Shown here piece by piece: positions 1 through 14,919 of a stretch of DNA of 28,816 nt; position 1 is the first letter of the stretch, and every line of letters starts with the position of its first letter. The DNA is from a virus. Below the pieces are notes generated by a model. It saw only the letters and a program-made list of their open reading frames with translations. It ran no database searches and was not told the origin of the DNA. The DNA lies in the IMG/VR virus record IMGVR_UViG_3300007539_003240, positions 1-28,816 of that record. One strand, 5' to 3'. Position numbers and translations under genes: made by a program.

Positions 1-466
1 CAGCTTCGTCCTTAGTAACGATTCCTTTACTAGCCGCTCCCTCTAGGAAAGCTTTCTTTACTTTCGCCATCAAGTCAGCCTTCTTCTTGCCGATAGCTTT
101 GCGAAGATCGTCAGCTTGCTGTAAGTCGAATCCTGCCAGCTTTTGTGCGATACGCATAGCTTGCTCTTGATAAACCAAAACGCCATAGGTGGGCTTTAGA
201 ATATCTTCTAGCGACTCGTGAAGATAGTCAACTTCTTCTTTAAGCCACTTGCGATCCACAAAACGTTGGGTCATAGTTTTGCCACGGTCAACAGCCTTTA
301 AGCAGCCGGGACGAATGATAGCAATCAAAGCTGCCAGTTCTTCCAAGTTTTCGGGAGCCAGCTTTTTAGACCAGCTTCGCCCTAGATTGCTCTCCAGTTG
401 AAACACACCCTTGGTAAGCCCCTCTCGAAACAGCTCCCAAGTTTTATCGTCATTATAATCAATCAT
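1..466 (-). CDS. dnaE: DNA polymerase III alpha chain, C-terminal part (split DnaE, runs off the window)
   Basis: Second piece of a bacterial-type replicative polymerase. The first 155 codons are seen; the rest lies before base 1. It starts MIDYNDDKTWELF and carries the conserved alpha-subunit strings GVFQLES (residues about 20-26), ALIAIIRPG, YGVLVYQEQAM and the ADDLRKAIGKKK block. In E. coli DnaE these form the fingers that hold the incoming nucleotide and template. The palm and all three catalytic Asp residues are in the separate upstream gene at 1127-2755. The ATG at 464-466 overlaps the TGA of the exonuclease gene (463-465) as ATGA, so translation is probably coupled. No intein C-terminal sequence (HN-Cys/Ser) precedes the polymerase homology. 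The beta-clamp and OB regions would be expected further on but are not visible. Family identity is sure; that the pieces assemble into one enzyme is inference. Confidence 0.93.
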   Translation of the reverse strand, partial: MIDYNDDKTWELFREGLTKGVFQLESNLGRSWSKKLAPENLEELAALIAIIRPGCLKAVDRGKTMTQRFVDRKWLKEEVDYLHESLEDILKPTYGVLVYQEQAMRIAQKLAGFDLQQADDLRKAIGKKKADLMAKVKKAFLEGAASKGIVTKDEA

Positions 467-1137
467 ACAAAATAACCTTTAGCAAAAGTCTTCTCAATCT
501 TTAGGTTGCGGTAAATCTGCCGCCTAGTTTTTTGGTAAGCAATAAATAGGTTAGCAGTATCTTTAACGTCTTGCATGGCATCGTGAGCATTATCAGCACT
601 CATCCTGTGACGCTCTCGGTTTGCATCCATGCTGATCGACTTGACATCAGGATCACCCTCTGTCCACAAGAATTGATCATCCATCACATCAATCTTGTAG
701 ATCTTGTTAAACAGTTTGTTTTGCTTCCTGTCTGCATCCCAATACATGTTATGCTCTTCGCATAATCTATTTACAATAGGCAGATCATATCCGATGATGT
801 TGTAGCCACAAGGAACCGGAGCGAAAAACTGAGTGCCCTTCCAATTAAACTTATTTACAAACTCACAGAAAGACTCCCATACAGCTTTTGGTAGAGGTGC
901 TTTTGCCAGCATCTCTCTAGTCTGGCCGGTAACTTTTAAAGCACCTTCCTCCAGCGGGCCAACGCCAGCAGCGATAGCTTCATCGTCGTCGATAATTGGT
1001 CGCATATAAGACTGGAATTCCCCTTTGGGTTTGAAGTTTCTGCCGTCCAAAGCTAATGCAGCAATCTGCGTAGGTTGGCAAGTTAGTGGGTTACGTCCAC
1101 CAGTTTCAAAGTCAAATACAATAATATCACGCTTCAT
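463..1137 (-). CDS. DnaQ-like 3'-5' exonuclease (DEDDh)
   Basis: Predicted proofreading exonuclease of the DEDD superfamily. Motif Exo I is FDFETGG near residue 10 (Asp and Glu metal ligands). Exo II is the YNIIGYDLPIVN block near residue 113. Exo III is HDAMQDVKD near residue 185, with the His-x4-Asp spacing of the DEDDh class seen in the DnaQ epsilon subunit, RNase T and exonuclease I. ATG at 1137 is preferred over TTG at 1140 because an AAGGA sequence sits at proper distance. The gene overlaps the upstream polymerase piece by 11 bases and the downstream piece by 4 (ATGA), so it lies exactly between the two halves of dnaE. In bacteria epsilon binds the polymerase PHP domain; here the PHP metal site looks degenerate, so proofreading probably rests on this protein. 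An unrelated trimming role cannot be excluded. Confidence 0.92.
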   Translation of the reverse strand: MKRDIIVFDFETGGRNPLTCQPTQIAALALDGRNFKPKGEFQSYMRPIIDDDEAIAAGVGPLEEGALKVTGQTREMLAKAPLPKAVWESFCEFVNKFNWKGTQFFAPVPCGYNIIGYDLPIVNRLCEEHNMYWDADRKQNKLFNKIYKIDVMDDQFLWTEGDPDVKSISMDANRERHRMSADNAHDAMQDVKDTANLFIAYQKTRRQIYRNLKIEKTFAKGYFV

Positions 1138-2755
1138 CAATAAGTTCCTTTACATACATAAGTTTATCTAGTAAGTTAATCGCAAGAACATCAAACTTAA
1201 CATGTCCTAACGCTTCCAAGTCAGCCATCTCAAGTCCAGCGATTTTCTCACTTGAACTCTTGGAGTCTACCATCGGGCAGACCAAGTGCAGAGGCTTTGC
1301 TGAAATCACAACTCCTGCTGCATGTTTTCCTTGTGTCTTAAATGTTCCTTCGATTTCAATAGCTTGACGGAAGTATTCTGCATAGTCACCGTCAAGTTCG
1401 CCACGGTCATTAATTTGGCAATAATCAATAAGATCGTCTGAGTTGTTGATCAAAGCCCATCTGATAATAGATCGCTCGTCATCATCCATTAAAGATAGTT
1501 GGTCGGAAATGGCTGCTTCGTCGGGGATGCTCTTGGTGATATGATTCATCTCGCCAAAGCCGCAAGCCTCATTTACACGCAGCACTTCTTTTATCGCACT
1601 TCGTCCTTGCAGTCTTCCAAATGTCAACATCTGGCTTACTCTGTCATGTCCATACTTATCTTTTAAATACTCAATGATCTCGTCACGCTTGCCGCCCGGA
1701 ACATCAATGTCAATATCTGGTAGAGAAATATGATCCTTGGTATTACGACCAGCATTGTAAAATCTTTCAAACAGTAGGTCAAACTCGATAGGGTCAATCT
1801 GAGTAATACCAAGCAAGTAAGAGATCAGGCAACCAGCAGCAGAGCCTCGTCCCGGTCCTGCCATCCAGCCGTTTCGGTTTACAATAAAGTCTAGAATATC
1901 CCAAACAATTAGGAAGTAGCCAAACAAGTCAGCATCTTCAATAACAGAGAACTCGTGACGGAAGCGATCCCCGTATTCTTTCTTTGATTCTGGGTCTTTT
2001 ACTTTTTCATGCAGTAATCTCATCCACCCCTCGCGTGCTAAGTGCCGTAGGTAGTCGCCCTCAGACTCACCTTTTGGGGTTTGAAACTCTGGTAGCATTG
2101 GTTGATTTAATATGTTGTAGTTTTCACACTTATGAAATATGTCTTCAAAGCAATCCATTCTTGGATCTTCGATAACCAACCTAGCTACTTCTTGTCGGTC
2201 TTTTAGATACCAATCATTGGATTCAAAGAATCTTTGAAACTCTCCTGCGTTGGAAATATCTTTCTTGACTTTTGGTATTGTAGTCTTGAGTCCAGAGCAG
2301 ATCAAGATTCTATGCAGGTCGGCTTGAGATTTTTCTACATAGTAAGTGTCTGTAAAGGCGTCAGACTTTTCATAGAAGTCATCGCCCGAGATTGGCGATA
2401 AAAACTCAGAGACAGCAACCGCAATTAGATTGCCACGCCCACAAAGAGTGCTTAGTAGATAACTGTCTACTTCACCATTTTCTATACTGGAAACAAGCTG
2501 GATAAGCTCTAGCCAGCCAGTGTGGTTTTTGGCGAACAACGTATAATCGTCAAAGGCACAGCCGATGATTGGCTTGATATCATGTTTTACGCAAGCCTGA
2601 TAGAATGATACAGCACCAGAGATAGACTTGTAATCAGCAATGCCACAAGCAGAGTAGGAATTATCAGATGCTTTCTTTGCTATTTCTGATGGTTTTGAGA
2701 AAGCTCTCTGTAGAGAATAGTGCGTATAGTTACAAAGCGGAAACCAGTTTTTCAT
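1127..2755 (-). CDS. dnaE: DNA polymerase III alpha chain, N-terminal part (PHP plus palm)
   Basis: First piece of the split replicative polymerase, 542 residues. Residues 1-70 are a PHP domain with a poor metal motif: NYTHYSL stands where active relatives have a His-x-His pair. The palm follows: WMAGPGRGSAAG near 298, the catalytic pair in LPDIDID (Asp347 and Asp349, matching E. coli Asp401 and Asp403), MLTFGRLQGRSAI near 376, GKHAAGVVIS near 476, and KFDVL with Asp522 (E. coli Asp555). The protein stops 20 residues later, before the fingers, which are encoded at 1-466. ATG at 2755 is chosen because TTGAGGATTAAC gives a GAGG six bases upstream; the longer TTG start lacks this. It is the first gene of an operon with its own promoter and a structured leader. 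All catalytic Asp residues are kept, so it is not a decayed relic. Confidence 0.94.
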   Translation of the reverse strand: MKNWFPLCNYTHYSLQRAFSKPSEIAKKASDNSYSACGIADYKSISGAVSFYQACVKHDIKPIIGCAFDDYTLFAKNHTGWLELIQLVSSIENGEVDSYLLSTLCGRGNLIAVAVSEFLSPISGDDFYEKSDAFTDTYYVEKSQADLHRILICSGLKTTIPKVKKDISNAGEFQRFFESNDWYLKDRQEVARLVIEDPRMDCFEDIFHKCENYNILNQPMLPEFQTPKGESEGDYLRHLAREGWMRLLHEKVKDPESKKEYGDRFRHEFSVIEDADLFGYFLIVWDILDFIVNRNGWMAGPGRGSAAGCLISYLLGITQIDPIEFDLLFERFYNAGRNTKDHISLPDIDIDVPGGKRDEIIEYLKDKYGHDRVSQMLTFGRLQGRSAIKEVLRVNEACGFGEMNHITKSIPDEAAISDQLSLMDDDERSIIRWALINNSDDLIDYCQINDRGELDGDYAEYFRQAIEIEGTFKTQGKHAAGVVISAKPLHLVCPMVDSKSSSEKIAGLEMADLEALGHVKFDVLAINLLDKLMYVKELIDEA

Positions 2756-2787
2756 GTTAATCCTCAAATAATAAGACTCAAAAAGGT

Positions 2788-2817
2788 GCGGTTTTTAACT
2801 GGAACCGCTAACCAGTT
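2788..2817 (-). promoter_or_regulatory. Candidate H-type RNA pseudoknot in the polymerase leader
   Basis: In the transcript, AACTGG (2817-2812) pairs with CCAGTT (2802-2797). The GCGGTT in its loop (2808-2803) pairs with AACCGC (2793-2788). The loops are TTA and AAA, giving two perfect 6-bp stems in 30 nt. The second stem alone is followed by ACCTTTTT, so it could also act as a weak terminator competing with the first stem. It ends about 32 nt before the ATG. Folding is read by eye; function is inference. Confidence 0.5.
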
Positions 2818-2825
2818 TCATTTCA

Positions 2826-2849
2826 AACTCAATAGGGAGATATTGAGTT
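2826..2849 (-). promoter_or_regulatory. 5'-end hairpin of the polymerase transcript
   Basis: Perfect 9-bp inverted repeat AACTCAATA / TATTGAGTT with a 6-nt loop. It begins about where transcription from the promoter at 2857-2885 should start, so the mRNA would open with this hairpin. Hairpins in this place often protect mRNA from 5'-end-dependent decay; that role here is inference. Confidence 0.5.
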
Positions 2850-2856
2850 CTATTAT

Positions 2857-2885
2857 ATTATAGTTTAGAAACTAACATTTTGCAA
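2857..2885 (-). promoter_or_regulatory. Sigma-70-type promoter for the polymerase operon
   Basis: -35 TTGCAA, 17-base spacer, -10 TATAAT, continuing TATAATATAATAG. It belongs to the window's repeated promoter family (ACTTGC at -35, TATAATATARTA at -10). The AGAATTCACTTGCAAAA stretch around the -35 nearly matches the copy at 28668-28696. Confidence 0.8.
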
Positions 2886-2911
2886 GTGAATTCTCAAAAA
2901 AATGTCAAAGT

Positions 2912-3526
2912 TTACCAGAATTTACACGACCAATAGCGACTTTTCCAACGTGGGCCCGGATTGTCACAATTGTGACGAGCACGAAAATTCTTGCGACGAC
3001 CCGGATCAGATTTCTTGATCTTCATGTTAGGATCGCCAAAGTTAACTTTTACCACGTTGCCTTTATCGTTCTTAACGTAAACGGATCGTTTCTTTGGGCC
3101 ATCAGGCGTCAGGAAGGGCTTGCCTAGCTTAACCTTGCGGCCTTGGTATTCAGCGGCACGCACAGGAATCAAAGTTCTGCCGTCCTTCTTGTAGACACCT
3201 TGCTGGTCGTACTCGTAGATTTCTTGAGTCTTAGGGTCACGGTACTTGTACTTAGATTGAGCTTTCTTCCAAGCGTCTGGATCTGGACGATCTGGATCAC
3301 CCTTCTTGGCGGGTTTGTAGTTCTTGCCTTCACGCTCCTTCTTCTTGCGAATGTTTTCCCAAAGTCCGGGTTTTGCCTCAGCAATATCCCATTCTTCAGT
3401 TTCTTCGCCTTCGCACTCTTCGTACTCATCTTCTGAGGGAATGTAGAAGTTGTCTTCCGTTAATTCCTCTGTTGTCCCGAAGGTTTCTTCGTACCATAAT
3501 TCGTCAGCTTCTGAAATATCAAACAT
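2912..3526 (-). CDS. Conserved phage protein with FRARHNCDNPGP motif
   Basis: 204 residues. The first 50 are strongly acidic (runs of Glu and Asp). The middle, about 50-130, is Lys/Pro/Asp-rich and probably disordered, starting at KPGLWENI. The C-terminal 70 residues are basic and contain the conserved-looking block RRKNFRARHNCDNPGP, then RYWSCKFW at the very end. I recognise this ending from small proteins of many tailed phages, where it can be fused to varied N-termini, but I know of no proven function. The two Cys and one His could bind a metal. Start ATG at 3526 has AGGAG at good distance. It follows the PAP2 gene by 9 bases and is the last gene before the polymerase promoter. A virion-assembly or nucleic-acid-binding role is possible. 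Confidence 0.7.
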   Translation of the reverse strand: MFDISEADELWYEETFGTTEELTEDNFYIPSEDEYEECEGEETEEWDIAEAKPGLWENIRKKKEREGKNYKPAKKGDPDRPDPDAWKKAQSKYKYRDPKTQEIYEYDQQGVYKKDGRTLIPVRAAEYQGRKVKLGKPFLTPDGPKKRSVYVKNDKGNVVKVNFGDPNMKIKKSDPGRRKNFRARHNCDNPGPRWKSRYWSCKFW

Positions 3527-3535
3527 AATAATCTC

Positions 3536-4213
3536 CTATTTGGATATTAAGTTGGGGTAAAGTTTGTACCTGATGTTTTCCCAGATTGCACCAACTACTA
3601 CCATTGAGGCTTCATTGTCACTGGGGTAATGTACGCCCTGCAAGCATCGTGCAAGGCCGACTCTTCCGGGCACACTAAACAGACTACTGCTTAATTCGGG
3701 GTACAGAGCGGCGAAATAGTAAGCTCCAGTGGCCCCATAAGCAGCATGACCAGACGGATATGCGGGAGTAAGGTGGGATTCTGTGTGCATAACCTTGACA
3801 TCTATGTCCATAAGAGGGGCTAGATGATACGGTCTTGGTCTATTGTACTGAAATTTCAAGTTCATAATTACATTATATACAATATTCCATAGTTTGTCAA
3901 ACTCTTTTCTGTGTTTATTAAAGACTTCTGGAGATAAAATTGCCTCGAAAAGTCTTTCAGGTTCAACATCTACGGTTTTTACTAGGGAAACCTCAGAAAC
4001 AGACAGATCTCTGGTGATTTCCTGTAGGTATAATAGCTCGTATTTAGTAGTTTCGCTGGTGTTACTGGGGGGATCGGCTAGAATCTCTTTCCAGTTTATA
4101 TCAATAATCGGGTTGACTTTGTAGGACTTGGGCTTTTTACCCTCAATCTCCATGTATGTTAGGGAATCTACGTTCGTGCCTACATATTCCTGCATTTTTT
4201 CTAAGTAATCCAT
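3536..4213 (-). CDS. PAP2-superfamily acid phosphatase-like protein
   Basis: 225 residues. The C-terminal half carries the three signature parts of the PAP2 / vanadium haloperoxidase phosphatase fold: K-x6-RP (KFQYNRPRP near 128-136), PSGH (AYPSGHAAYG near 160) and R-x5-H-x3-D (RCLQGVHYPSD near 197). The two His and the Arg residues form the phosphate pocket and the phospho-His intermediate in the family. Unlike most bacterial PAP2 lipid phosphatases, I see no long hydrophobic segments and no signal peptide, so a soluble cytoplasmic enzyme is likely. The substrate is unknown; nucleotides or sugar phosphates are guesses based on the neighbours. ATG overlaps the TAA of the upstream nuclease gene (TAATG), so it is co-translated with replication genes. 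Confidence 0.85.
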   Translation of the reverse strand: MDYLEKMQEYVGTNVDSLTYMEIEGKKPKSYKVNPIIDINWKEILADPPSNTSETTKYELLYLQEITRDLSVSEVSLVKTVDVEPERLFEAILSPEVFNKHRKEFDKLWNIVYNVIMNLKFQYNRPRPYHLAPLMDIDVKVMHTESHLTPAYPSGHAAYGATGAYYFAALYPELSSSLFSVPGRVGLARCLQGVHYPSDNEASMVVVGAIWENIRYKLYPNLISK

Positions 4214-5253
4214 TATCCCGGAGCCTCATAATAACCAATATTGTGACCATCTCTAGTGTATTTAGCTACAGTTTTGTCGTAACCATCTGTTCTTAGACTA
4301 TTATACACGGTTTTGCACATATTATCGCTATCACCAGAGTTGAACTTGTTCTTGCAAAAATGACACAAAGTCTTACATTTGAAGTTCCTATGTGTAGGAT
4401 CTAACATAGATGGATTGATATTTCGTCTAATTTTCTCAACCTGATTTTTTAACATCTCCAAGAACCGTGGCTCATCTTCTTTGCTGAAAGGCATGGAGTA
4501 TGGCCTTGGATCGTATTTACCATCCTTGTCTTTAGAGAAAAATATACTCATAATCCTATTAGGAAATTGAGGATACAGCTTAGACATGGCGTAAAAGTAC
4601 AGTAGTAGTTGTGGATCATTCCATAACTTATCATAAGTCTTTTCCTCCATAGTGGCCCAGTTTAGTCTACGGCCAGTTTTCCAGTCAATCACTTCGATTG
4701 TGTCCTCGTTCACCAAGGTCACCAAGTCAATTGTTCCTTTGATCGCTAGTCGTCCTTCTACACGCTCGCCATTGATTTCGTAATCAAACTTAGCCCAATC
4801 CTCTTCGATTGCAATATCAAAGTGCGGCTCAGTAAAATAAATATTACGTTCTCGTGGGTCAAATTGACCATTATTATGATGCAGGAATAGCCAGCAGCCA
4901 TCCATAACTTCTTTGAAGTGTCGCGGCTGCCAAGTGTTGGGAGAATCTTTTTTGTAAGATTCGTAGCTCCTCTCAGCGAGTTCTTCGATAAACTCATCTT
5001 CGTACAATTTCTTCTTGCCCACCTTGACTTCACCAATAGCATCATCCACGATCTTTAGGATTCTAGCTTTTGGATTCTCTTGCTGGTACTTTTTGAGTGC
5101 GGCTAGGCACTCCATAACCTTGTGAACCATAGTTCCTTGCTCGGCTCTACGTCCACTATCAGACCTGTATCCTAAAACATAAGTAATAAAATACTGCATC
5201 TGGCAATAATCATAATTATTATAAGACGAACTTCTAACGTATGTTACTATCAT
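4213..5253 (-). CDS. PD-(D/E)XK nuclease, RecB/Cas4-like
   Basis: About 346 residues with the layout of RecB-family nuclease domains. SSSYNNYDYCQMQY at the start is the usual S-x-Y-x2-CP-like helix, and GTMVHKVME gives the His motif. Then come GTIDLVTLV and EVIDWKTG (Asp, Asp-x-Lys catalytic core), the QLLLYFYAM helix motif, and a late Cys cluster (CKTLCHFCKNKF) that together with the early Cys could hold an iron-sulphur cluster, as in Cas4 and AddB. The likely action is end resection or trimming of DNA during recombination and replication. Start ATG at 5253 is chosen over an earlier TTG because CAAGGAGAATCA gives AAGGAG six bases upstream. It overlaps the dNMP kinase gene by 20 bases and the PAP2 gene by one. 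No other Cas genes or arrays are present, so I do not call it Cas4. Confidence 0.88.
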   Translation of the reverse strand: MIVTYVRSSSYNNYDYCQMQYFITYVLGYRSDSGRRAEQGTMVHKVMECLAALKKYQQENPKARILKIVDDAIGEVKVGKKKLYEDEFIEELAERSYESYKKDSPNTWQPRHFKEVMDGCWLFLHHNNGQFDPRERNIYFTEPHFDIAIEEDWAKFDYEINGERVEGRLAIKGTIDLVTLVNEDTIEVIDWKTGRRLNWATMEEKTYDKLWNDPQLLLYFYAMSKLYPQFPNRIMSIFFSKDKDGKYDPRPYSMPFSKEDEPRFLEMLKNQVEKIRRNINPSMLDPTHRNFKCKTLCHFCKNKFNSGDSDNMCKTVYNSLRTDGYDKTVAKYTRDGHNIGYYEAPG

Positions 5254-6007
5254 TGATTCTCCTTGAGAAAGATTGGAAGGCTTCTCGGACTTTAGGGATA
5301 AGAGAATCAACAGTGCAATTATTATTGTCCAAGTAGTCTTTAAAAGAATAGTTATCTAAAGCTGTTTCGCTTGTGTGTTGGTCGTCAAAAACCTGTCGGG
5401 TTAATCTTAATGTAATTCCTCCTGCCTTTTCGATTGCTTCTACTTCATTAGGAAACCTAACATCTGTAACGATTGCCAGCTCGGTTCCTTCGCGTTGAAT
5501 ATCTTTAATGCACTTGTTGACCCAGATTGGTTCCCATATTCCCCGGCAAATGTCTGTACCAAAAACTTGCAGAAACTCGCGAGCTGTCATTGGCCCAAAT
5601 GCATTTGGATGGCCCCACTCAATATGGCGAACGGCGATTGGTAAGTTTTCCCACCGCAAATGTTCATGCTTTTGATTCTTCTGATCTTCTGTGCCAAAAC
5701 AGCACTCTGGAGGAACATCAAAAAGCTCAATAGCCATCCATTTTAATGCATCCGCAAAACTATACATTTTTATATATGGATACATGTTAGCTTCTGCCCA
5801 CTGCTTGAATTCGGAATCGCGTCTCTCGACATCAAACTCTCCCCAACCCTCGGTTCCAGAAGCATCTGTGGTCAATACCCATAACTTGCCTTCATCATTA
5901 ACAGTGAAGTCTTTCACCATACCCATTTTTTTAAGCACGATGCCATGAAGAACATTAGACACAGTATTCTTGCCGGCGTTCTTTTTTCCTGAAAGTCCAA
6001 TAATCAT
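5234..6007 (-). CDS. Deoxynucleoside monophosphate kinase (T4 gp1-like)
   Basis: 257 residues. A P-loop variant GLSGKKNAGKNT sits at residues 4-15. It is followed by FADALKWM near 91, a FGTEDQKN loop, MTAREFLQVFGTDICR near 145, and VTDVRFPNEVEAIE near 183. This order matches phage dNMP kinases, which phosphorylate dNMPs to dNDPs during phage DNA synthesis and recycle host nucleotides. Residues 39-75 form an extra Trp/Asp-rich stretch before FADALK whose role I cannot assign. The ATG overlaps the primase TGA as ATGA, and the 3' end overlaps the nuclease gene by 20 bases, placing it inside the replication operon. Confidence 0.9.
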   Translation of the reverse strand: MIIGLSGKKNAGKNTVSNVLHGIVLKKMGMVKDFTVNDEGKLWVLTTDASGTEGWGEFDVERRDSEFKQWAEANMYPYIKMYSFADALKWMAIELFDVPPECCFGTEDQKNQKHEHLRWENLPIAVRHIEWGHPNAFGPMTAREFLQVFGTDICRGIWEPIWVNKCIKDIQREGTELAIVTDVRFPNEVEAIEKAGGITLRLTRQVFDDQHTSETALDNYSFKDYLDNNNCTVDSLIPKVREAFQSFSRRINDSNIR

Positions 6008-7032
6008 TTTAGTATTTCCTTAATTTGTTCAATAGTTTTCTTACCAATGTCACTACCGGTTGTTTTAGGGAAAACTAAAGTAAATAGTCTGCCTAACTTC
6101 CTTTGTAGCTCTACCTTAGCTTCGCGTCCTGCTTGATCGTTGTCTAAAAGAACCACCAGCTTAGTTGCTCCGCTATTGAGTAGAAGAGATTTTTGCTCGC
6201 TAGAAACATCCTTGCCGAAAAGTCCGACTGCATTCTTGTAGCCAGCTTCCCAAAGCCTCCAAACATCGCCTTGCCCTTCTACTAAAATTAACGTTCCGAA
6301 CGTCGCGTTTGATAGTGCGGAGTCGTAATTGTATAAATATCTTGTTTTAACGAATCCTTCATTGAAGAGGAACTTTGGCTTGACCCACTCGTGCATGGCT
6401 CGCCCCATGTATCCGACAAGACCACCATTCTGCCAGATGGGTATAATGCTACGTTTGAGTCCATAGCAATCCCTGATGCCGAAAGCGTCGAGGACTGATT
6501 TGGAAAACCCACGCGACTGAAAGTATTCTGAAGCGGTGGCGGCTGTACTCGGGAGTTCAACCGAAATCTCAGGTCTGTCAGTTCTTCTTCTACTTGCGTT
6601 ACGGCTGATGCGAGTAACCAAAGCAGAAAAGTCGTCATCAGCATCCAAAGTATCATTGTGCCCACTATTAGTCCCATTTTTCTTCTCCTTTGAAGCACCA
6701 TTTACGTCATAAATTTTACATACATATTTTAATATCTCAGAAAAAGTTGGCTCTTGTCCTGTCTGTTTCGACAATACGCCCCGTATAAAACCGAATATAT
6801 CTGAGTTATATTCAGAATTACAGCCACGAGTCCAGCATCTCCACATCTGCTTGTCTAGCGATATCGAGCAGCCGTTAGGATTATCGCTACCCTCGTGGCA
6901 AGGGCAGCACATGAACACATTGTCCATATCCTGATAATACTCTATACCAAAACTATCTAGTAGTTTAGATATATCATTAAATATAATTTCTTTTACTTTA
7001 TTAAGATCCAGAGTTCGCTTTACTGTACTCAT
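6004..7032 (-). CDS. dnaG: DnaG-like DNA primase
   Basis: 342 residues, about half the length of bacterial DnaG. A CHC2-type zinc-binding domain is at 43-71 (Cys43, His46, Cys66, Cys71). A variable, Ser/Asn/Asp-rich linker covers 112-155. The catalytic core is at about 160-340 with RSIIPIW and GYMGRAM. The TOPRIM motifs are LVEGQGDVWRLWEAG (Glu252) and VVLLDNDQAG (Asp297, Asp299). No C-terminal helicase-binding domain or helicase fusion is present; the DnaB-like helicase is encoded separately at 8212-9648. It makes RNA primers for lagging-strand synthesis. Start ATG at 7032 lies within the 3' end of a small membrane-protein gene; the Shine-Dalgarno is weak, so translation may be coupled to that gene. 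Confidence 0.92.
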   Translation of the reverse strand: MSTVKRTLDLNKVKEIIFNDISKLLDSFGIEYYQDMDNVFMCCPCHEGSDNPNGCSISLDKQMWRCWTRGCNSEYNSDIFGFIRGVLSKQTGQEPTFSEILKYVCKIYDVNGASKEKKNGTNSGHNDTLDADDDFSALVTRISRNASRRRTDRPEISVELPSTAATASEYFQSRGFSKSVLDAFGIRDCYGLKRSIIPIWQNGGLVGYMGRAMHEWVKPKFLFNEGFVKTRYLYNYDSALSNATFGTLILVEGQGDVWRLWEAGYKNAVGLFGKDVSSEQKSLLLNSGATKLVVLLDNDQAGREAKVELQRKLGRLFTLVFPKTTGSDIGKKTIEQIKEILK

Positions 7033-7171
7033 AATATATAATACCTAAATTCGCTAAAACATAACCAGTCCACATTATTGCATGTCCCCAGTCTTGCTGT
7101 CTGATGTTATCAACTAAACATAACATATAACACAAACTGGCTATAATCACAGTCCAAGTTGTTAATGACAT
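7001..7171 (-). CDS. Small two-helix membrane protein
   Basis: 56 residues from ATG at 7171, one base after the GMP reductase stop; the 3' end overlaps the primase start by 32 bases. Two hydrophobic segments, about residues 6-22 (TWTVIIASLCYMLCLV) and 33-49 (IMWTGYVLANLGIIYYE), are joined by a short charged loop, with a polar tail. No family is recognised. It may exist partly to couple translation into the primase gene. The tight junctions and strong hydrophobic pattern favour a real gene, but short length keeps confidence moderate. Confidence 0.6.
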   Translation of the reverse strand: MSLTTWTVIIASLCYMLCLVDNIRQQDWGHAIMWTGYVLANLGIIYYEYSKANSGS

Positions 7172-7172
7172 A

Positions 7173-8222
7173 TTACACCGTCTGGTCAAAGTGGGTTCTG
7201 TTTACTCTTACAAACTGACAAGCCTTTGCAAAATCCTTGAGATTATCTACTCCTGTATAAGTGCAAGCACTTCTTACGCCGCCTTGAATGTCTCTTATTG
7301 CATCTTGAACTGGACCTTTGGTCTCCATCTCAATCACTCGCCCCTCGCTGGCACGATACCCTTTGAGTCCATCGCCGTGTTTTTCTTGAGCCATTTGTGA
7401 CGACATTCCGTAAAAAGTAAAGACGCCATCGTTCACTTCGCCTTCGCACTCATCGGTCCCAGCGAACATCCCGCCAAGCATCACAAAATCAGCTCCAGCT
7501 CCGTATGCTTTTGCAACATCTCCCGGAGTCCTACAGCCTCCATCTGCACAAATTAATCCTAGACGGCCAGTGTCTTTGCGTAGTCCGTGAGCAGCGTGGG
7601 CACATTCAGCGATGGCAGATAATTGTGGGTATCCAACGCCGGTTTTTAGTCTCGTGGTGCAAGCACTTCCGGGACCAATACCCACCTTGACGATATCAAC
7701 GCCGCCATGCAAGATGAGTTCTGTCACCATGTCAGGGGTGCAAACATTGCCCGCCATAATGATTGGATTTGCTCCAACAGACTGACGGATAGCTTTGCAG
7801 TAATCTACAAAATATTCTGTATAACCATTGGCAACATCAATACAGATATTAGGATAGAATCCATGCTTCTGAGCTACAATGTCTATATTCTGGAATGCCT
7901 CGCCAGTAGAGTTCATACCTAGAGTAACCCAAGTGTAAGGAAAGGCGTCATAGTATTCGTAATAAGCCGCCAGCTTATCTGAATCATAGTGCTTATGTAG
8001 GCAAGTGATCATGCCATACTTCATAAGCTCTGCGGACATACTAAATGTCCCAGTAGCAACCATATTGGAAGCAATGATGGGAGTTCCGTACCATTGCTTC
8101 TGCGAATGATAGAACTTGAATTTACGTTTTAGGTTTACGTCCCCTCTACTGCCAACGCTTGAGCGTTGAGGAACGATAAGTACGTCGTCAAAATCTAGTT
8201 TGGGTTCATTGTTAATTTTCAT
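7173..8222 (-). CDS. guaC: GMP reductase
   Basis: 349 residues, the usual length of bacterial GuaC. TIM barrel of the IMPDH/GMPR family, without CBS domains. The active loop reads GIGPGSACTTR with catalytic Cys188 (E. coli Cys186). It continues KTGVGYPQLSAI, which matches GMP reductase rather than IMP dehydrogenase. CADGGCRTPGDVAKA, GADFVMLGGM, YGMSSQMA, YRASEG and IRDIQGGVRSACTY follow as in GuaC. The enzyme turns GMP to IMP with NADPH, moving guanine nucleotides toward the adenine branch. ATG at 8222 has GAGG at good spacing and overlaps the helicase stop by 11 bases; an ATG two codons earlier is also possible. It sits between helicase and primase genes, so it is part of the replication operon. 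A purine-reductase gene in a phage replication block is unusual. Confidence 0.92.
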   Translation of the reverse strand: MKINNEPKLDFDDVLIVPQRSSVGSRGDVNLKRKFKFYHSQKQWYGTPIIASNMVATGTFSMSAELMKYGMITCLHKHYDSDKLAAYYEYYDAFPYTWVTLGMNSTGEAFQNIDIVAQKHGFYPNICIDVANGYTEYFVDYCKAIRQSVGANPIIMAGNVCTPDMVTELILHGGVDIVKVGIGPGSACTTRLKTGVGYPQLSAIAECAHAAHGLRKDTGRLGLICADGGCRTPGDVAKAYGAGADFVMLGGMFAGTDECEGEVNDGVFTFYGMSSQMAQEKHGDGLKGYRASEGRVIEMETKGPVQDAIRDIQGGVRSACTYTGVDNLKDFAKACQFVRVNRTHFDQTV

Positions 8223-9648
8223 CTTCATCCTCGAATAGTGGAATTTCCGAACCTTCAATCCCGCCATCGGGATTAGCAAGTCCTTGATCTCTTGTGTGTA
8301 ATTCTGTGAGCCTTGCGTACTCACCCTCAAATCTAAAGTTAATATAGTTCCCGTTTAGGGTTCTTGGTCCATGACGGGCTTTTAGGGTAACTAGTTTACG
8401 ATTACCGCCTCGTGGACCGTCCTCAGCAAGCTCGTCTGGCGACTTCTCTTTAAGCATAGAGAAAGAGGTACAGAACCAGATAATGCGGTCAGAGCCGCTC
8501 ACCGAGGCCGTAGTCTCTTGTGTGATACCGTCACGATTCAGCTGGGTCAAGCATACGCAAGGGATATCATACTTTACGGCAAGATTGTGTAGCTCTTGGA
8601 TCTGGAAGCCTAGAGCTTGAAACTCTTTAATGTCTACAATTCCTCCAGCAGACATTAGTTTCAGATAGTCTACAATAACTAGACAGTCGTTTGTTCTACC
8701 ATCTTCATCTGTTCCTACCTCTTGTAGAACCCAGCGTTTGATAGTGTTTAATATATTCTCCCACGGCTTTCCTGCTGCACACTCGTAGGTATATGGCATT
8801 TCTTTAAGTTCTGCGGCAGCTCGTTTTACAGCATTGTATTTCTCTTCGTCGTTGGCAAAGCGACCAGTGGCGATTTCGTCTTGCGGGACACTAGACATGT
8901 GAGCCAGAACACGATTGTAGTGGTCGTCCACTTTCATCTCTGTGTCAACCATGAGTACAGGAATACCGGCCTTTGTGTTATGGATAGCGATGTTGTCAGA
9001 GATGACAGATTTACCAACACCCGGACGAGCAGAGATAACATCAACGCAGGCTCTTCTGTGTCCACCGCCAAGAACAGCGTCATAGTTAGGAAAGCCGGAA
9101 GACAATCCCAACTGATCGCATTTGTTGTCCATGACAAATTCTAGGTAGTCATCCACCCCTTCGCCAATCATCTGCGGTTTTTCGCCATGCTCATCTTCTC
9201 TAAGGAAGTCAATAAGCGGAGTCTCGATCATGCTCACTATCTGATCAAAGGTTTCGTCTCCAGTCATGTTGTCTATGTTTTTTTCAATAGACTTGGTGAC
9301 TTTTTTAGAATTACGAGCGAATTCAAACTTCTTGATCTGCATAGCAAAACGCATAATGTTGCGTTTATCTACAGAATAGTTGATTAGATCTAGAATGTAG
9401 TCTAGGTTATTCTGAGTCGTAATGACTTCTTCTACACCAAGAGACTCCGCAGCAGAAACGATAGAAGGAATGTCAGCAACGCCATCTTCCATAGCGACCT
9501 TGCTTAGACATTCATATATTACTTGGTTGTTGGGGTCTGTGAATGTTGAACTGGTGATTATCTCCATCAAATCAACATAAGCCTCAAGGCCGTAGTTAGC
9601 CAGACCAGCTAGTACGGCACGCTCAGCACCAATATCCGAAAGTTTCAT
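8212..9648 (-). CDS. dnaB: DnaB-like replicative DNA helicase
   Basis: 478 residues, close to bacterial DnaB. The N-terminal helical domain covers about 1-110 (GAERAVLAGL near 7). The RecA-like ATPase domain begins near 178 (CDQLGLSSGF). Walker A is ARPGVGKS at 207-214. VLMVDTEMK follows, then Walker B VIVDYLKLMS near 335, and CVCLTQLNRDG (motif H4). The arginine-finger region is GGNRKLVTLKARHGPR. The C-terminus is acidic. It should unwind DNA at the fork as a hexamer with the primase at 6004-7032. ATG at 9648 has AGGATAGG just before it and is the first gene after the promoter at 9680-9708. No helicase loader is recognised in the window. Confidence 0.94.
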   Translation of the reverse strand: MKLSDIGAERAVLAGLANYGLEAYVDLMEIITSSTFTDPNNQVIYECLSKVAMEDGVADIPSIVSAAESLGVEEVITTQNNLDYILDLINYSVDKRNIMRFAMQIKKFEFARNSKKVTKSIEKNIDNMTGDETFDQIVSMIETPLIDFLREDEHGEKPQMIGEGVDDYLEFVMDNKCDQLGLSSGFPNYDAVLGGGHRRACVDVISARPGVGKSVISDNIAIHNTKAGIPVLMVDTEMKVDDHYNRVLAHMSSVPQDEIATGRFANDEEKYNAVKRAAAELKEMPYTYECAAGKPWENILNTIKRWVLQEVGTDEDGRTNDCLVIVDYLKLMSAGGIVDIKEFQALGFQIQELHNLAVKYDIPCVCLTQLNRDGITQETTASVSGSDRIIWFCTSFSMLKEKSPDELAEDGPRGGNRKLVTLKARHGPRTLNGNYINFRFEGEYARLTELHTRDQGLANPDGGIEGSEIPLFEDEDEN

Positions 9649-9679
9649 TACCTATCCTCAATAAACAAATGACTATTAT

Positions 9680-9708
9680 ATTATAGTCTGCAAACTCAAA
9701 TTTCGCAA
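9680..9708 (-). promoter_or_regulatory. Sigma-70-type promoter for the helicase-primase operon
   Basis: -35 TTGCGA, 17-base spacer ending TTTGCAGAC, -10 TATAAT continuing TATAATATAATAG. The spacer end plus -10 is identical to the promoter at 20300-20328. It lies about 30 bases upstream of the helicase ATG. Confidence 0.8.
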
Positions 9709-9732
9709 GTAAAAAATAGAAAAAAAGTAGGA

Positions 9733-10137
9733 TTATCCAGTGCATCTGTTGCATCGGATAAATTCTCCGTAAACAAGGCTAGAAGCGATCTCGAATTCTT
9801 TATTGCAAACCGAGCAGGTTTTCTTTACAATGTTTGTTCTAGACGCTTGCGGCCTAGTAGCTCGACCAATGGACTCATACTTAGCTGGGTCAAAGTCTGG
9901 GTCTCTTGACTCTCCGGTGTCAGACCAAGTATTAGACTTGGCTTTGACTGGAGCTTTCCCTTCAATATTCTTGCCCCAACTCGTAGAGAAATCATTGGCT
10001 TTTGAGGGCTTAGTGGTCGGCTCTGGCTCTTGTTCTGGTTGTAGATTACCAACATCTGTGATAAGTTTAGCAACCAATTGTTCTTTTTGCTCTTTTGTCA
10101 ACGTAGACAGTAATGTTTGTAGTATGTCTTCACTCAT
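9733..10137 (-). CDS. Zinc-ribbon protein, function unknown
   Basis: 134 residues. The N-terminal 30 form an acidic helix with LTKEQKEQLVAKL. The middle (about 35-100) is Pro/Ser/Lys/Asp-rich and probably disordered. The C-terminus is a four-Cys zinc ribbon: CSVCNKEF, then CNRC about 20 residues on, ending at RCTG. Such ribbons often bind nucleic acid or a protein partner. ATG overlaps the TGA of the upstream helical-protein gene (ATGA), and it is the last gene of the recA operon before the helicase promoter. I do not recognise a named family. The context suggests an accessory recombination or replication factor. Confidence 0.7.
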   Translation of the reverse strand: MSEDILQTLLSTLTKEQKEQLVAKLITDVGNLQPEQEPEPTTKPSKANDFSTSWGKNIEGKAPVKAKSNTWSDTGESRDPDFDPAKYESIGRATRPQASRTNIVKKTCSVCNKEFEIASSLVYGEFIRCNRCTG

Positions 10138-10598
10138 TTTCTTTTTCCTTTTTCAATTAAGATTTCGGCTTTCCGTTTAATATTGTATTCTCTGTTTCTT
10201 AGATGCTCAAGTCTGCCCTCAGCAGTGAGCTTCCAGTTGTTGACGGCACTGGCTATAGAGTCGTTGGCGAGAATTGTCGCGACTTTAGTATCATGTTTTG
10301 CGAACTTGTCCCACTCCCCATGCTGAACACCGTAAGCTATAACTCTTTGCAACGTATCGCTACACCAGCGGATAACATTCTCAGTGTGGGCACGCTCTTG
10401 GCCGACATGATCTGCGTACTGGTATAAAAGAAACGCTTCGTCAAACAGCTCATCTCTAGTCAGCGTTTTTAGTCGCTCGTCAGATATCTGATCTGCATTC
10501 TGGAACTCTTTTTTGAATTTACATGGCTGCAAATTCTTTCCCTCGATATACTCTGTGATACCATTCAAAAAGTATTCTAACCTATCTTGCGAGTTCAA
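10134..10598 (-). CDS. Helical protein next to recA; possible UvsY-like recombination mediator
   Basis: 154 residues from a TTG start at 10598. The TTG is preferred because TTGGAGGG lies seven bases before it; a TTG 33 bases upstream has no such site. The sequence is charged and helical, with LANDSIASAVNNWK near 108 and RLEHLRNREYNIKRK near 127, followed by a Lys-rich tail. This C-terminal pattern resembles small helical recombination-mediator-like proteins near recA-type genes in large phages, but the match is by eye only. It overlaps the nuclease gene upstream by 17 bases and the zinc-ribbon gene downstream by ATGA. If it is a mediator it would load RecA onto SSB-coated DNA. Confidence 0.65.
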   Translation of the reverse strand: MNSQDRLEYFLNGITEYIEGKNLQPCKFKKEFQNADQISDERLKTLTRDELFDEAFLLYQYADHVGQERAHTENVIRWCSDTLQRVIAYGVQHGEWDKFAKHDTKVATILANDSIASAVNNWKLTAEGRLEHLRNREYNIKRKAEILIEKGKRK

Positions 10599-11001
10599 TT
10601 TTTTCCCTCCAATATTCTGGGTCTTCGTCAAATCTAAAAATTACTAACTCAATACCATTTATTTTACACCACTCTTCCTTGTCTCTATCTCTGCCTCTTG
10701 CTTGAGCAAAACCAGCACGAGACTTGTGAAAGAATGGTATATACTTAAAATGCTGTTGCCCATGTACCTCTACAGCTATATTAACATTAGGAATAAAAAA
10801 GTCAAGGTATAAAACTGATCTTTTATATTTAGCCGTAGATCCCGGAAGTTTGACCTCTTCGTATATATTATAACCCTTAAACACATCCCTAAGTAACTCA
10901 CTAGCACTAATATGGTAATAAGACTTTTTAGATCTATCATTCACTGCGTACTTTTGCAGGTTTAAGTTGTACTCTCTGCCGTTTAACCCGATTATTCTCA
11001 C
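10582..11001 (-). CDS. PD-(D/E)XK endonuclease, Vsr/DUF559-like
   Basis: 139 residues. The nuclease core is in the second half. LDFFIPNVNIAVEVHGQQH near 66-84 gives the Asp followed by Glu-x-His. RDRDKEEWCKINGIELVIFRF near 103-123 gives the usual late helix and strand of very-short-patch-repair-like folds. An N-terminal domain of about 55 residues (ISASELLRDVFKG) probably binds DNA. GTG at 11001 is the start: AAGGAG lies six bases upstream and it overlaps the recA TGA as GTGA. The partner gene recA suggests a role in recombination or branched-DNA cutting. A free-standing homing endonuclease is the main alternative, but full operon integration argues against it. Confidence 0.8.
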   Translation of the reverse strand: MRIIGLNGREYNLNLQKYAVNDRSKKSYYHISASELLRDVFKGYNIYEEVKLPGSTAKYKRSVLYLDFFIPNVNIAVEVHGQQHFKYIPFFHKSRAGFAQARGRDRDKEEWCKINGIELVIFRFDEDPEYWREKIELAR

Positions 11002-12080
11002 AGTAAACTCCTTAGCTCCTGATATATAAAGTCATATATTACAGGATTATCTTCTAGGAAATCTATAACTTTAGCCATTCCTTGAAACTTAAATAACTTC
11101 TCTGGCTCCTTGCCTTCAGAGTTTTCTTCGATCCACTTTGCAATTGTTGGATCTGATTGGTTGTTAACAACGCAGTCTAGTGTGTACCAAGCTCCAGATT
11201 TGTCGATTAGGCAAAGTTCCGTTGCTAGTTCTGCCATCTCTCTTGCCTCGTCGATACCAATACCATAACGGATATAACTAGCACAAGTGCTGTTTGGTTT
11301 ACCGCCAGCCGAGCTTGTTTTAATTACCCAGTTAGCAATTTGGCCAATATGATTGCCGTCATTGTCTTCCCACTTGTTGCGATGAGTTATAGACATGTTG
11401 GTGCTAATTTGATACTGCAACTTATTACCAGAGTCAGCCATCTTAGCAGGAGCCCAGCGTGAGCCGCCAGTATTAGCGATGTTGTGAGTGATGAAGATAC
11501 AAATAGCTCCAGTTCTCTGAACATCGTTGGCGATACGCTTAAAGAACATAGCAAGCAGTCGCGGTAGGCCATTACGAACGTTGGCACGAATCTCACCGTC
11601 AAGCTCATCACGAGGACACATGCTAGAAGTAGAGTCGCAAATCAATACTACATCCTCTTCTTCTTTGATAATCCTCTCCATGATGTTGAGGTAATCCTCG
11701 GCAGACAGGATTTTATCATCAGATGACTGAATGATCTGCACCTTCTCTGCATCTAGGCTTTTAATTTGCTCAAGATTGTGACGATCAACACGCCCTTCAG
11801 AGCAGATATAATATACCCGCTTTCCTTGTTGTTGAGCCTTGCCCGCAAAGTACAAAGCGGTTGTGGTTTTGCCGGTCTTAGGGTCGCCGGCCATAGCAAC
11901 GCAGGTTCCTTCTCTCAAACCTCCGCCTAAAGCACAGTCAAGTGCTGGGCTAATACCGATAACTTTTAAGCTCTTTAGCCTTTCGAGTAATTCGATACCA
12001 CTTTCAACTACGTTGCCGTATTTTTTAATGATTCCATCAACAGTCGGATTACCCGTTGTCTTTGTTTTCTTTTTCCCCAT
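10998..12080 (-). CDS. recA: RecA/UvsX-like recombinase
   Basis: 360 residues. RecA-type ATPase core: GISPALDCALGGGL near 42, Walker A GDPKTGKTT at 65-73, YYICSEGRVD near 92 (catalytic Glu region), Walker B VVLICDSTSS near 145, then FITHNIANTGG near 198 (loop L2 region) and a C-terminal region unlike E. coli RecA. It should form filaments on single-stranded DNA and pair homologous strands during recombination-dependent replication and repair. ATG at 12080 has GAGGAAG upstream; a TTG two codons earlier is possible. It overlaps the upstream gene by 32 bases and the downstream nuclease by GTGA. Confidence 0.9.
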   Translation of the reverse strand: MGKKKTKTTGNPTVDGIIKKYGNVVESGIELLERLKSLKVIGISPALDCALGGGLREGTCVAMAGDPKTGKTTTALYFAGKAQQQGKRVYYICSEGRVDRHNLEQIKSLDAEKVQIIQSSDDKILSAEDYLNIMERIIKEEEDVVLICDSTSSMCPRDELDGEIRANVRNGLPRLLAMFFKRIANDVQRTGAICIFITHNIANTGGSRWAPAKMADSGNKLQYQISTNMSITHRNKWEDNDGNHIGQIANWVIKTSSAGGKPNSTCASYIRYGIGIDEAREMAELATELCLIDKSGAWYTLDCVVNNQSDPTIAKWIEENSEGKEPEKLFKFQGMAKVIDFLEDNPVIYDFIYQELRSLL

Positions 12081-12519
12081 TTTCAAACTTCCTCATTTTA
12101 GATAATAGATTTTTCTTTCCGTAGGACTTCTTTCTTCGTTTGGCATCAACCTTTACTTCGATGTCCTGTTTTGGCTGAGCCTTTTCTGTTTCTATAATAC
12201 GCTCATGCTTCTTTATAATTTTTATGCAATTAGGATGATTAAGAGAGAATATTCCCCTGAAGTCAGGGGAATTGATAGCTCTCACTAATGCTGCCTCGCT
12301 ATAATCTTTTAGTAACTTATTGGCGGCGAATAGTTGTCTTTTGAAGGTCCAGTCCCAAGGTTTCTTGCTCCAGAATTTATAAGGCAAGGAGCCTTGGTTT
12401 TTGTTCTCTGCGTTCTTCTTACACATAATTTCAGCAACATAAGCCGCACAGGTGCAATACTCGCCTGTGGACTCATGCTGATATTTACTTTTGTCGGTTC
12501 TCTTTCTTTTCTTCTCCAT
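12049..12519 (-). CDS. Unknown protein upstream of recA
   Basis: 156 residues, not recognised. N-terminus is very basic (KKRKRTDKSK). EYCTCAAYVAEIMCKK near 20-35 holds three Cys. WSKKPWDWTFKRQLFAANKLL near 50-70 is aromatic and helical, FRGIFSLNHPN near 88 follows, and the tail (110-156) is Lys-rich and probably disordered. The compact middle plus charged ends suit a nucleic-acid or replisome-binding protein. It overlaps recA by 32 bases and the gene before it by 35, so it is expressed with recA. The Shine-Dalgarno GGAGG is somewhat distant (12 bases). Confidence 0.7.
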   Translation of the reverse strand: MEKKRKRTDKSKYQHESTGEYCTCAAYVAEIMCKKNAENKNQGSLPYKFWSKKPWDWTFKRQLFAANKLLKDYSEAALVRAINSPDFRGIFSLNHPNCIKIIKKHERIIETEKAQPKQDIEVKVDAKRRKKSYGKKNLLSKMRKFENGEKENKDNG

Positions 12520-12913
12520 TGTAGATAATAGCCTCCGTAAAACAATGTTCTAAATCTTCTGTGGTTTCTCTTTCCATGATAAGCTCTGGAACTTTCCACA
12601 TTTTCTTATGCATCAAACCGTCTTTAAGTAGGCCAACAGTATAATACTGCTTCGTTTCGCCTCCGACCATGCCCATAACTGAAGGGACAAAATAGATAGC
12701 GTCTGGTTCGCCTATGTCCATTATAACACAGTGTGACCTAAATTGCAACTCCATTTCTGAAAGAAATACAGAATTTTTGTCGCAATGCTCCTTTACTTTC
12801 AGCCAATCTTTATGATCGGTAGTGAAGTATAATTGTCCGTCAGTTAGTTTAATTTTTAGCCAAGTAGCAGACTTGTTTGTTCTGTATGACGCTAACCATT
12901 TATCCCTATCCAT
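12485..12913 (-). CDS. Unknown protein, 142 residues
   Basis: Not recognised. Mixed alpha/beta composition with alternating strands (TWLKIKLTDGQLYFTTD near 17, CVIMDIGEPDAIYFVPSVMG near 62) and no membrane segment. The tail is Glu/Lys-rich. ATG at 12913 has AAGGTGAG upstream and starts 4 bases after the stop of the HTH-like gene. It overlaps the next gene by 35 bases. It lies in the block of small genes between phoH and recA. Confidence 0.7.
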   Translation of the reverse strand: MDRDKWLASYRTNKSATWLKIKLTDGQLYFTTDHKDWLKVKEHCDKNSVFLSEMELQFRSHCVIMDIGEPDAIYFVPSVMGMVGGETKQYYTVGLLKDGLMHKKMWKVPELIMERETTEDLEHCFTEAIIYNGEEKKENRQK

Positions 12914-12917
12914 TTAC

Positions 12918-13226
12918 TCACCTTATGTTTGTTGTACATCTTTTTGATCTAGGTGGAGGCCCGGTTTTTCTGAAGCTGTCACCTAGCTCTGATGCGTTAG
13001 GCGTCATAACCGTCGAGCCTTTTCCGTTGCGTGCGAACTGACCCATTGTGTGAGTCTCTTCTTTGCTGGAAGGTGGCTCTTGAGTCACTGCTGGCAGCTT
13101 TTTAATGTACTTTTCGATAGTGGTTTTTGCACGATCTAAATCCTTGCAAAGATCGCCAATCGACATATGAGTATTATTTTCAATGTAAAATCTTTCAGCC
13201 TTGCTGAGCGGTCCTTTCTTAGTCAT
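12918..13226 (-). CDS. Small protein with HTH-like N-terminus
   Basis: 102 residues. Residues 7-45 (LSKAERFYIENN, MSIGDLCKDLDRAKTTIEKY) have the length and residue pattern of a helix-turn-helix that recognises DNA, as in small regulators and resolvase-like proteins. The C-terminal half is Gly/Pro/Ser/Arg-rich, with a compact motif VMTPNASELGDSFRK near 73 that I recall from other large phages. It could be a transcription co-regulator, perhaps acting with the phage sigma factor, but that is inference. It overlaps the preceding gene by 8 bases. Confidence 0.68.
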   Translation of the reverse strand: MTKKGPLSKAERFYIENNTHMSIGDLCKDLDRAKTTIEKYIKKLPAVTQEPPSSKEETHTMGQFARNGKGSTVMTPNASELGDSFRKTGPPPRSKRCTTNIR

Positions 13227-13560
13227 TTAAAAATCCTCTCTGTGCCTTTGTTAGATATATAGAATTGTTTGTTTTAAGATATGTCATGTAATAGTCGAAA
13301 GTGTTTTTAGAAACTCGACGCATTTGAGTGTCAAGATTTCTCTCTCTTCTACCGTATGGCCCCATCGGATCAAAAGGAGTGCTTTGATAGATCTTAATAT
13401 AGTAGGTAGATACTCCTGCCTGTTCGACATTATCTTTTATGATCTTGGCAAAGTGGCTTCTCTTGTTGTGAACAGCGTCTTTGTTTAACTCTTCTCCAGT
13501 CCGTCCGAAAAGAGTAATTTCTCTTGTGTCAGATTGAGTTATTTTCTCAACATATTTCAT
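13219..13560 (-). CDS. Unknown basic protein, 113 residues
   Basis: Not recognised. ITLFGRTGEELNKDAVHNKR near the start is followed by basic, Tyr-rich segments (STYYIKIYQS, GPYGRRERNLDTQMRR, TFDYYMTYLKTNN). No membrane segment or Cys. The single-copy Arg/Tyr clusters suggest a nucleic-acid contact surface. ATG at 13560 is preceded by TGGAGGGAAGAAA and overlaps as ATGA the stop of a coding-like ORF at 13557-13742 that lacks a normal start. It overlaps the HTH-like gene by 8 bases. Confidence 0.7.
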   Translation of the reverse strand: MKYVEKITQSDTREITLFGRTGEELNKDAVHNKRSHFAKIIKDNVEQAGVSTYYIKIYQSTPFDPMGPYGRRERNLDTQMRRVSKNTFDYYMTYLKTNNSIYLTKAQRGFLND

Positions 13561-13742
13561 TTTCTTCCCTCCATTATATACCTGTGTTGTTGTTGAGGAG
13601 TCATTTTATTGATCTCCTTATGGGTAGCAGATCCATACTTGGGGTTTTGATACCAAGATTTAATTGTAGGGTTCGCTTCGCTCTTTTTATGAGCTTCTTC
13701 TTCTAGCTTGTTTTTATTTACTTTAGAATTGTGATCCGCTAG
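13557..13742 (-). pseudogene. 61-codon coding-like ORF without a usual start codon
   Basis: The frame is open from the TAA at 13743-13745 to a TGA at 13557-13559 that forms an ATGA overlap with the next gene. The reading (LADHNSKVNKNK at the start, SWYQNPKYGSATHK in the middle, PQQQHRYIMEGRK at the end) looks like real protein and fits the tight packing. No ATG, GTG or TTG occurs before codon 47. The first codon is CTA, just inside the FmdB stop. The sequence ACTAGCGG would become ACTAATGGCGG, a TAATG junction of the kind used elsewhere here, by adding just ATG. So the gene may have lost its start codon, or it uses a non-standard start. A short 15-residue peptide from the ATG at 13604 (AAGGAG upstream) is another option. 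Confidence 0.5.
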
Positions 13743-13915
13743 TTACCAACGGTATCAATGGTGTTTACTTTAGCCATGATACCGCCAGTAACAACTCTAA
13801 ATAATTCATCCTTTCCGCACTCCGGGCATGTAGTCAAAGCATCGTCGTGAAATGATTGCTGCACGTCGATAAGTTGATGTTCACACCCAGAGCATTCGTA
13901 GTCATATTTCGGCAT
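13739..13915 (-). CDS. FmdB-family zinc-ribbon protein
   Basis: 58 residues. Start MPKYDYECSGCEH gives the family's opening aromatic strand and first Cys pair (Cys8, Cys11). LTTCPECGKDELFRVV gives the second pair (Cys30, Cys33). This is the layout of FmdB-type small zinc ribbons, found across bacteria and in some large phages. Members have been linked to transcription regulation, but the molecular role is not settled. The ATG directly follows the phoH TAA (TAAATG), and the TAG stop lies at 13739-13741. The short C-terminal extension (GGIMAKVNTIDTVGN) is not part of the zinc site. Confidence 0.82.
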   Translation of the reverse strand: MPKYDYECSGCEHQLIDVQQSFHDDALTTCPECGKDELFRVVTGGIMAKVNTIDTVGN

Positions 13916-14593: not shown

Positions 14594-14622
14594 TTGCCAT
14601 CCCTAAATGTTAGTGGTTATAC

Positions 14623-14919
14623 TTATTCCAGATCGTCCTCCTTAACAAATATCCCGTCCACCATTTTGCCTTTGCGGTCTTTGATGTCGTCCCATGCTTT
14701 GGCTAAGCAATCGTCCATCTCTAAACCGTTTCTCTCCATGATATTGATCATGACAACCATCATATCGCCAAGATCATCCCTTATATCTTTGCCTTTGCAC
14801 ACACTGTCAGAAAGCTCGCCAAGCTCTTGCAACAACTTCAAGGTTTGATCCTTGTCGGTGCTACCCTCAATGAGATTTCTGTCGTGATGCCATTGTCTAA
14901 TTTTATCTACGTAACTCAT
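14623..14919 (-). CDS. MazG-like nucleotide pyrophosphohydrolase
   Basis: 98 residues, one MazG-type four-helix unit. KLLQELGELSDSV near 28-40 carries the paired Glu ligands (ELGEL), and IRDDLGDMMVVM near 46-57 the Asp-x3-Asp ligands for magnesium. Members cut nucleoside triphosphates to monophosphates; phage versions may cleanse dNTP pools or lower alarmone levels. ATG at 14919 overlaps a TGA that closes the nrdB tail frame (ATGA), showing that the two genes were once directly coupled. Confidence 0.88.
   Translation of the reverse strand: MSYVDKIRQWHHDRNLIEGSTDKDQTLKLLQELGELSDSVCKGKDIRDDLGDMMVVMINIMERNGLEMDDCLAKAWDDIKDRKGKMVDGIFVKEDDLE

Follow-up and report, generated by a model that had tools for sequence, protein, structure and literature searches.

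At one end of a 28,816-base viral genome fragment (the entire IMG/VR record IMGVR_UViG_3300007539_003240, hereafter the window), the catalytic chain of a family C replicative DNA polymerase (DnaE) is encoded in two pieces, with the gene for a DnaQ-like DEDDh exonuclease between them (Table 1). The first piece, dnaE-N, matches the Pfam families PHP (PF02811, E = 1e-13) and DNA_pol3_alpha (PF07733, E = 7e-65, the profile being covered through position 260 of 260). The second, dnaE-C, matches DNA_pol3_finger (PF17657, E = 1e-47) from profile position 25 and, since the window is the whole record, breaks off at the contig end. The gene in the gap matches the profile phrog_192, 'DNA polymerase exonuclease subunit' (E = 4e-26); it is overlapped by dnaE-N over 11 bases and itself overlaps dnaE-C over 4 bases (ATGA). 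The original prediction for this DNA had described a palm with three catalytic aspartates ending at residue 542, fingers in a separate gene and a DnaQ-like gene joined to both by overlaps of 11 bases and ATGA, and the open reading frames (ORFs), the Pfam matches and an alignment of relatives bear this out.

Table 1. Coordinates of the split polymerase locus in the window and of the complete fingers gene in the relative L002.
Feature	Sequence	Position	Strand	Remarks
dnaE-N	window	2755..1127	minus	542 amino acids, ATG start at 2755; PHP, palm and thumb of family C DNA polymerase
DEDDh 3'-5' exonuclease (DnaQ-like)	window	1137..463	minus	224 amino acids, ATG at 1137; RNase_T, E = 5e-10
dnaE-C	window	466..1	minus	fingers; 155 amino acids, open at contig end
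Shine-Dalgarno-like AAGGA	window	1146..1150	minus	5' of the exonuclease ATG, within the coding end of dnaE-N
Shine-Dalgarno-like AAAGG	window	476..480	minus	5' of the fingers ATG, within the coding end of the exonuclease gene
dnaE-C, complete	L002	8651-10207		518 amino acids, fingers through OB fold

Beyond base 1 of the window, the second piece can be followed in the closest relative found, the IMG/VR locus L002 (exonuclease 96% and fingers 97% identical, the latter over the shared 155 amino acids), where it is complete and no C-terminal remainder is missing. Taken across the two chains, with the OB fold from L002, the PHP domain, a palm with three aspartates, fingers and OB fold of a family C polymerase are all present, and the gap exonuclease combines an RNase_T domain with the D, E, D, H and D residues of a DnaQ-like DEDDh enzyme. 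The palm aspartates (D347, D349 and D522) are invariant across 18 relatives and the exonuclease residues (D9, E11, D118, H185 and D190) across 17. In an alignment to solved DnaE structures, the profile of the palm piece reaches Taq residue 636 and that of the fingers piece picks up at 650, so that together they cover the DnaE core apart from a linker stretch of ∼13 residues. AlphaFold2 (AF2) models of dnaE-N and of the L002 dnaE-C (mean predicted local distance difference test scores of 86 and 85) match DnaE in Foldseek, with E down to 5e-31 for the former and 1e-19 for the latter. In these models a helix (residues 527–541) preceding the palm-fingers linker closes the palm chain and another (residues 7–14) comes almost directly after the start of the fingers chain; the break therefore lies between two helices.

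The arrangement is not peculiar to the window. Scans of IMG/VR with exonuclease, palm and fingers queries, and of GTDB genomes, yielded 229 non-redundant loci holding both pieces, and the gene order seen in the window recurs in every one of them (229/229), which exceeds chance; none (0/229) carries the polymerase as a single unsplit ORF, although each scan took in the nearest 80 matches and might have overlooked an unsplit sister at greater distance. Pairwise identity within the set falls as low as 35% for the palm, 26% for the exonuclease and 34% for the fingers. Unsplit DnaE was recovered among the matches listed, as 78 bacterial sequences and also from phages at ∼30% identity, and in a tree built with these unsplit phage and bacterial sequences by a quick method the split family forms one clade (Shimodaira–Hasegawa-like approximate likelihood ratio test support 100). 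One enzyme is thus carried in two ORFs, with a break that is absent from unsplit phage and bacterial DnaE, as in other genes in pieces. Two of the loci (L242 and L243) come from metagenome-assembled bins and are most simply phage contigs binned with their host or by mistake. Purifying selection on all three genes is strong, with median ratios of non-synonymous to synonymous substitution rates (dN/dS) of 0.05 for palm, 0.02 for exonuclease and 0.04 for fingers (20 usable pairs) and values of ∼0.05, ∼0.02 and ∼0.03, respectively, between the window and L002. Their distance matrices are correlated (r 0.87–0.90).

The junction itself bears on how the two chains could become one enzyme. In the loci inspected, only 0–17 residues follow the last homologous position of the palm chain and a few precede the first one of the fingers chain; neither an N- nor a C-terminal intein half was found there, and there is no room for such halves. 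With no extra sequence on the chains, the pieces are therefore not joined by an intein, in agreement with the original prediction, which had seen neither intein half at the junction. Post-translational joining of the type that split inteins provide in cyanobacterial DnaE, and reportedly in the so-called fractured genes, is accordingly very improbable. Split inteins do appear to occur elsewhere in the DnaE of this family, as in L004, which has intein-like halves and endonuclease-type ORFs at the sites GPGRG/SAGG and FNK/SHA, but even L004 has no intein at the palm-fingers junction. The two apparent interruptions of the L004 dnaE lie at 748-3638 and 4985-7826, with an endonuclease-type ORF in each gap, and the first N-half resembles the NrdJ-1 split intein. 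The fingers gene is also interrupted in L032 (8671-11518), near the FNK/SHA site, and in L051 (8679-11024), within one long ORF near residues 50–56, in both cases by a probable intein.

Joining could alternatively occur through RNA or the ribosome (an intron, bypassing or frameshifting) or through DNA excision of the exonuclease segment. In the window, the palm and fingers ORFs happen to have a common frame and each contains ATTGAT in phase, which would in principle permit fusion by excision. Across the family, however, the relative frame is not conserved (0, 1 and 2 in 58, 77 and 94 loci, respectively) and in-phase flanking direct repeats show no excess over a shuffled-pair control, which together argue against fusion by frameshift or excision. 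The junction has no match to Rfam intron families, the gap between the pieces ranges from an overlap up to +2817 nucleotides and the exonuclease ORF is strongly conserved; we regard joining of this kind as very improbable. Shine-Dalgarno-like sites precede the exonuclease gene in 162 of 215 relatives (75%) and the fingers gene in 75 of 195 (38%), against a background of 9%, as expected if both are translated separately. As intein, known intron, frameshift and excision are all unsupported, non-covalent assembly is the simplest reading, and the comparative data support the earlier proposal that the two chains would assemble as they are, probably together with the exonuclease. Assembly would apparently proceed without splicing of any kind.

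Both gaps, palm-exonuclease and exonuclease-fingers, are insertion hotspots. Many relatives hold 0.3–2.8 kb of other genes there, including endonuclease VII-like genes in 24 loci as well as HNH types, methyltransferase-like, glycosyltransferase-like and other genes, and endonuclease-type genes are found in either gap. Presence and absence alternate between close relatives (L002, L006, L025, L029, L034 and others): with palm DNA 84–93% identical, L034 has no insertion, L029 carries an HNH_3 gene and L025 a different HNH-like ORF, which is the behaviour of mobile endonuclease genes. The gaps of the window itself hold no endonuclease gene, many relatives do have one, and L002 has an HNH-like ORF with no Pfam match. 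That the gaps attract HNH and endonuclease VII-like genes suggests an origin like that of the T4-type split gene 43, in which a mobile endonuclease would have broken the polymerase gene once. The original prediction had also proposed that the gene order could help co-translational assembly. The order indeed never changes, but with 0.3–2.8 kb of other genes in the gaps of many relatives, co-translational assembly is not required. Two small conserved ORFs lie between palm and exonuclease, one of ∼75 amino acids in 44 loci (e.g. L052 7769-7993) and one of ∼60 amino acids in 70 loci (e.g. L202 5013-5192); neither has a Pfam match, and both are possible extra subunits.

If the split gene were decayed or accessory, replication would fall to another enzyme, from the host or from an unrecognised viral gene. 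There is a precedent in some jumbo phages, in which a minimal Pol III alpha is split and a PolB is present as well (PMC7824862). In 12 related contigs of 122–174 kb (G001–G012), which may miss parts of their genomes, we found no match to PolA or PolB, families that did match control genomes, and each contig has exactly one palm gene, one fingers gene and one RNase_T gene. Another full-length DNA polymerase, which according to the original prediction would make the split one dispensable, was thus not detected in these 12 contigs. The dN/dS values of 0.02–0.05, the invariant catalytic residues and the position of the locus near primase, DnaB-like helicase, UvsX-like and ribonucleotide reductase (RNR) genes also speak against a decayed or accessory gene, which we consider distinctly improbable. 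The replication and nucleotide metabolism neighbours in the window (4213-19241) comprise an exonuclease, a deoxynucleoside monophosphate (dNMP) kinase, a primase, an IMPDH/GMP reductase-like dehydrogenase, a DnaB-like helicase, a UvsX-like recombinase, PhoH, NrdB and NrdA. The bacterial beta clamp domain had no match in the 12 contigs, with positive controls; T4-like capsid gp23 and T4 clamp families also had none, but the control genomes were equally silent, which makes this result uninformative. In one of the contigs (L111, G006 47183-48358) the fingers domain is matched in two stretches ∼700 nucleotides apart within a single 529-amino acid frame.

The gap exonuclease is probably a proofreading subunit that contacts the polymerase, as judged from its sequence and position. 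It shares the gaps with many other unrelated genes and might, like them, be a passenger that does not work with the split polymerase. Yet it is the sole gap gene found in 229 of 229 loci and the only RNase_T match in each of the 12 large contigs, and it matches the PHROG family of DNA polymerase exonuclease subunits; it also bears a conserved C-terminal tail, and the PHP metal-binding motif of the polymerase looks degenerate when compared by eye with the motif quoted in PMC12926913. A mere passenger is therefore unlikely. A stronger form of partnership, in which the exonuclease would bridge or stabilise palm and fingers and polymerisation would depend on it, so that an obligate three-chain replicase, kept by selection, would be the only polymerase of the whole clade, is conceivable but rather doubtful.

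We consider it likely that the locus encodes a genes-in-pieces family C replicase that is held together non-covalently, has the gap exonuclease as its proofreader and was split once in the ancestor of the clade. The single alpha chain of other DnaE enzymes would here be made as two separately translated polypeptides, which would meet in the short palm-fingers linker and form a common fold with no covalent bond between them, while the DEDDh exonuclease encoded between them would act as the proofreading subunit. The split would date from the common ancestor of these phages and have been fixed thereafter; a plausible trigger is the insertion of a mobile endonuclease gene in the linker region, the exonuclease gene having come along with it or later. 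Several considerations weigh against such an enzyme. The structure predictions cover single chains rather than the palm-exonuclease-fingers complex, a constant gene order is not in itself proof that the proteins touch, and plain co-inheritance would also yield correlated distances. The 12 large contigs are not certified as complete genomes, and no cultured phage with the palm-exonuclease-fingers order was found in the searched collection; the exonuclease gene of Bacteroides phage DAC16 has no recognisable DnaE adjoining it.

Cyanobacterial DnaE is likewise made from two genes, but there a trans-splicing intein joins the pieces, with a break point elsewhere than the palm-fingers break, whereas the junction described here has no intein. 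In the 'fractured genes' of Dassa et al. 2009, essential phage enzymes are reportedly interrupted, with a free-standing endonuclease gene at the interruption. Such genes, and the split PolB with a split intein of phage MIJ3 (PMC6892783), are similar to L004, which apparently has two sites of this kind in its DnaE, and differ from the palm-exonuclease-fingers break, where there is no intein. The T4-like Aeromonas phages 25 and 44RR have gene 43 divided into 43A and 43B, and phage Aeh1 has a divided nrdA; in each case a replication enzyme is broken into two ORFs that flank an endonuclease gene or a spacer, and splicing is absent. The gp43A and gp43B proteins of phage 25 co-purify and have polymerase activity, and the NrdA of Aeh1 works despite its split (PMC2988022). 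Those cases concern a family B polymerase or an RNR in few phages, whereas the present split affects a family C enzyme and is fixed across a deep clade; in contrast to gene 43, the break is in the palm-fingers linker and an exonuclease gene always occupies the gap.

A family C polymerase made as two viral proteins, predicted to reconstitute the enzyme, has been reported for group 2.2 jumbo phages, where a minimal Pol III alpha core without other Pol III domains is encoded by distant genes beside PolB (PMC7824862). At the loci described here the genes are adjacent, extend from PHP to OB fold and enclose the exonuclease gene, and no PolB was detected. Cellulophaga phage phi13:1/phiST (gp038/gp039) also has dnaE in two adjacent genes, but its break lies between the FERFLNSGR region and the PDID catalytic motif with nothing in between, the end of the palm and the fingers form one chain and the DEDDh exonuclease gene is elsewhere. 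The phi13:1 dnaE (L084 5680-9280), split inside the palm and with an unusual gp038 tail, represents a separate split event. In Escherichia phage Bas100, as in certain other phages, DnaE is unsplit, and the Bas100 exonuclease-subunit gene lies directly upstream of it. The original prediction had supposed the arrangement to be undescribed. For the specific order palm-exonuclease-fingers this agrees with our literature search, which found no description in mostly open papers and did not cover Dassa et al. 2009; since a split phage Pol III alpha (PMC7824862) and split polymerases (PMC2988022) have already been described, the kind itself is not new.

A replicative polymerase has apparently existed as two separate chains for as long as a large group of uncultured phages has been diversifying, and the cut lies where domains of its catalytic core meet. 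Annotators could easily misread the two pieces as truncated genes. With them one can test how an active site divided between chains comes together, whether its assembly couples proofreading to polymerisation, and whether an essential enzyme can carry lasting traces of mobile endonucleases; they also offer natural raw material for building a split family C polymerase tool.
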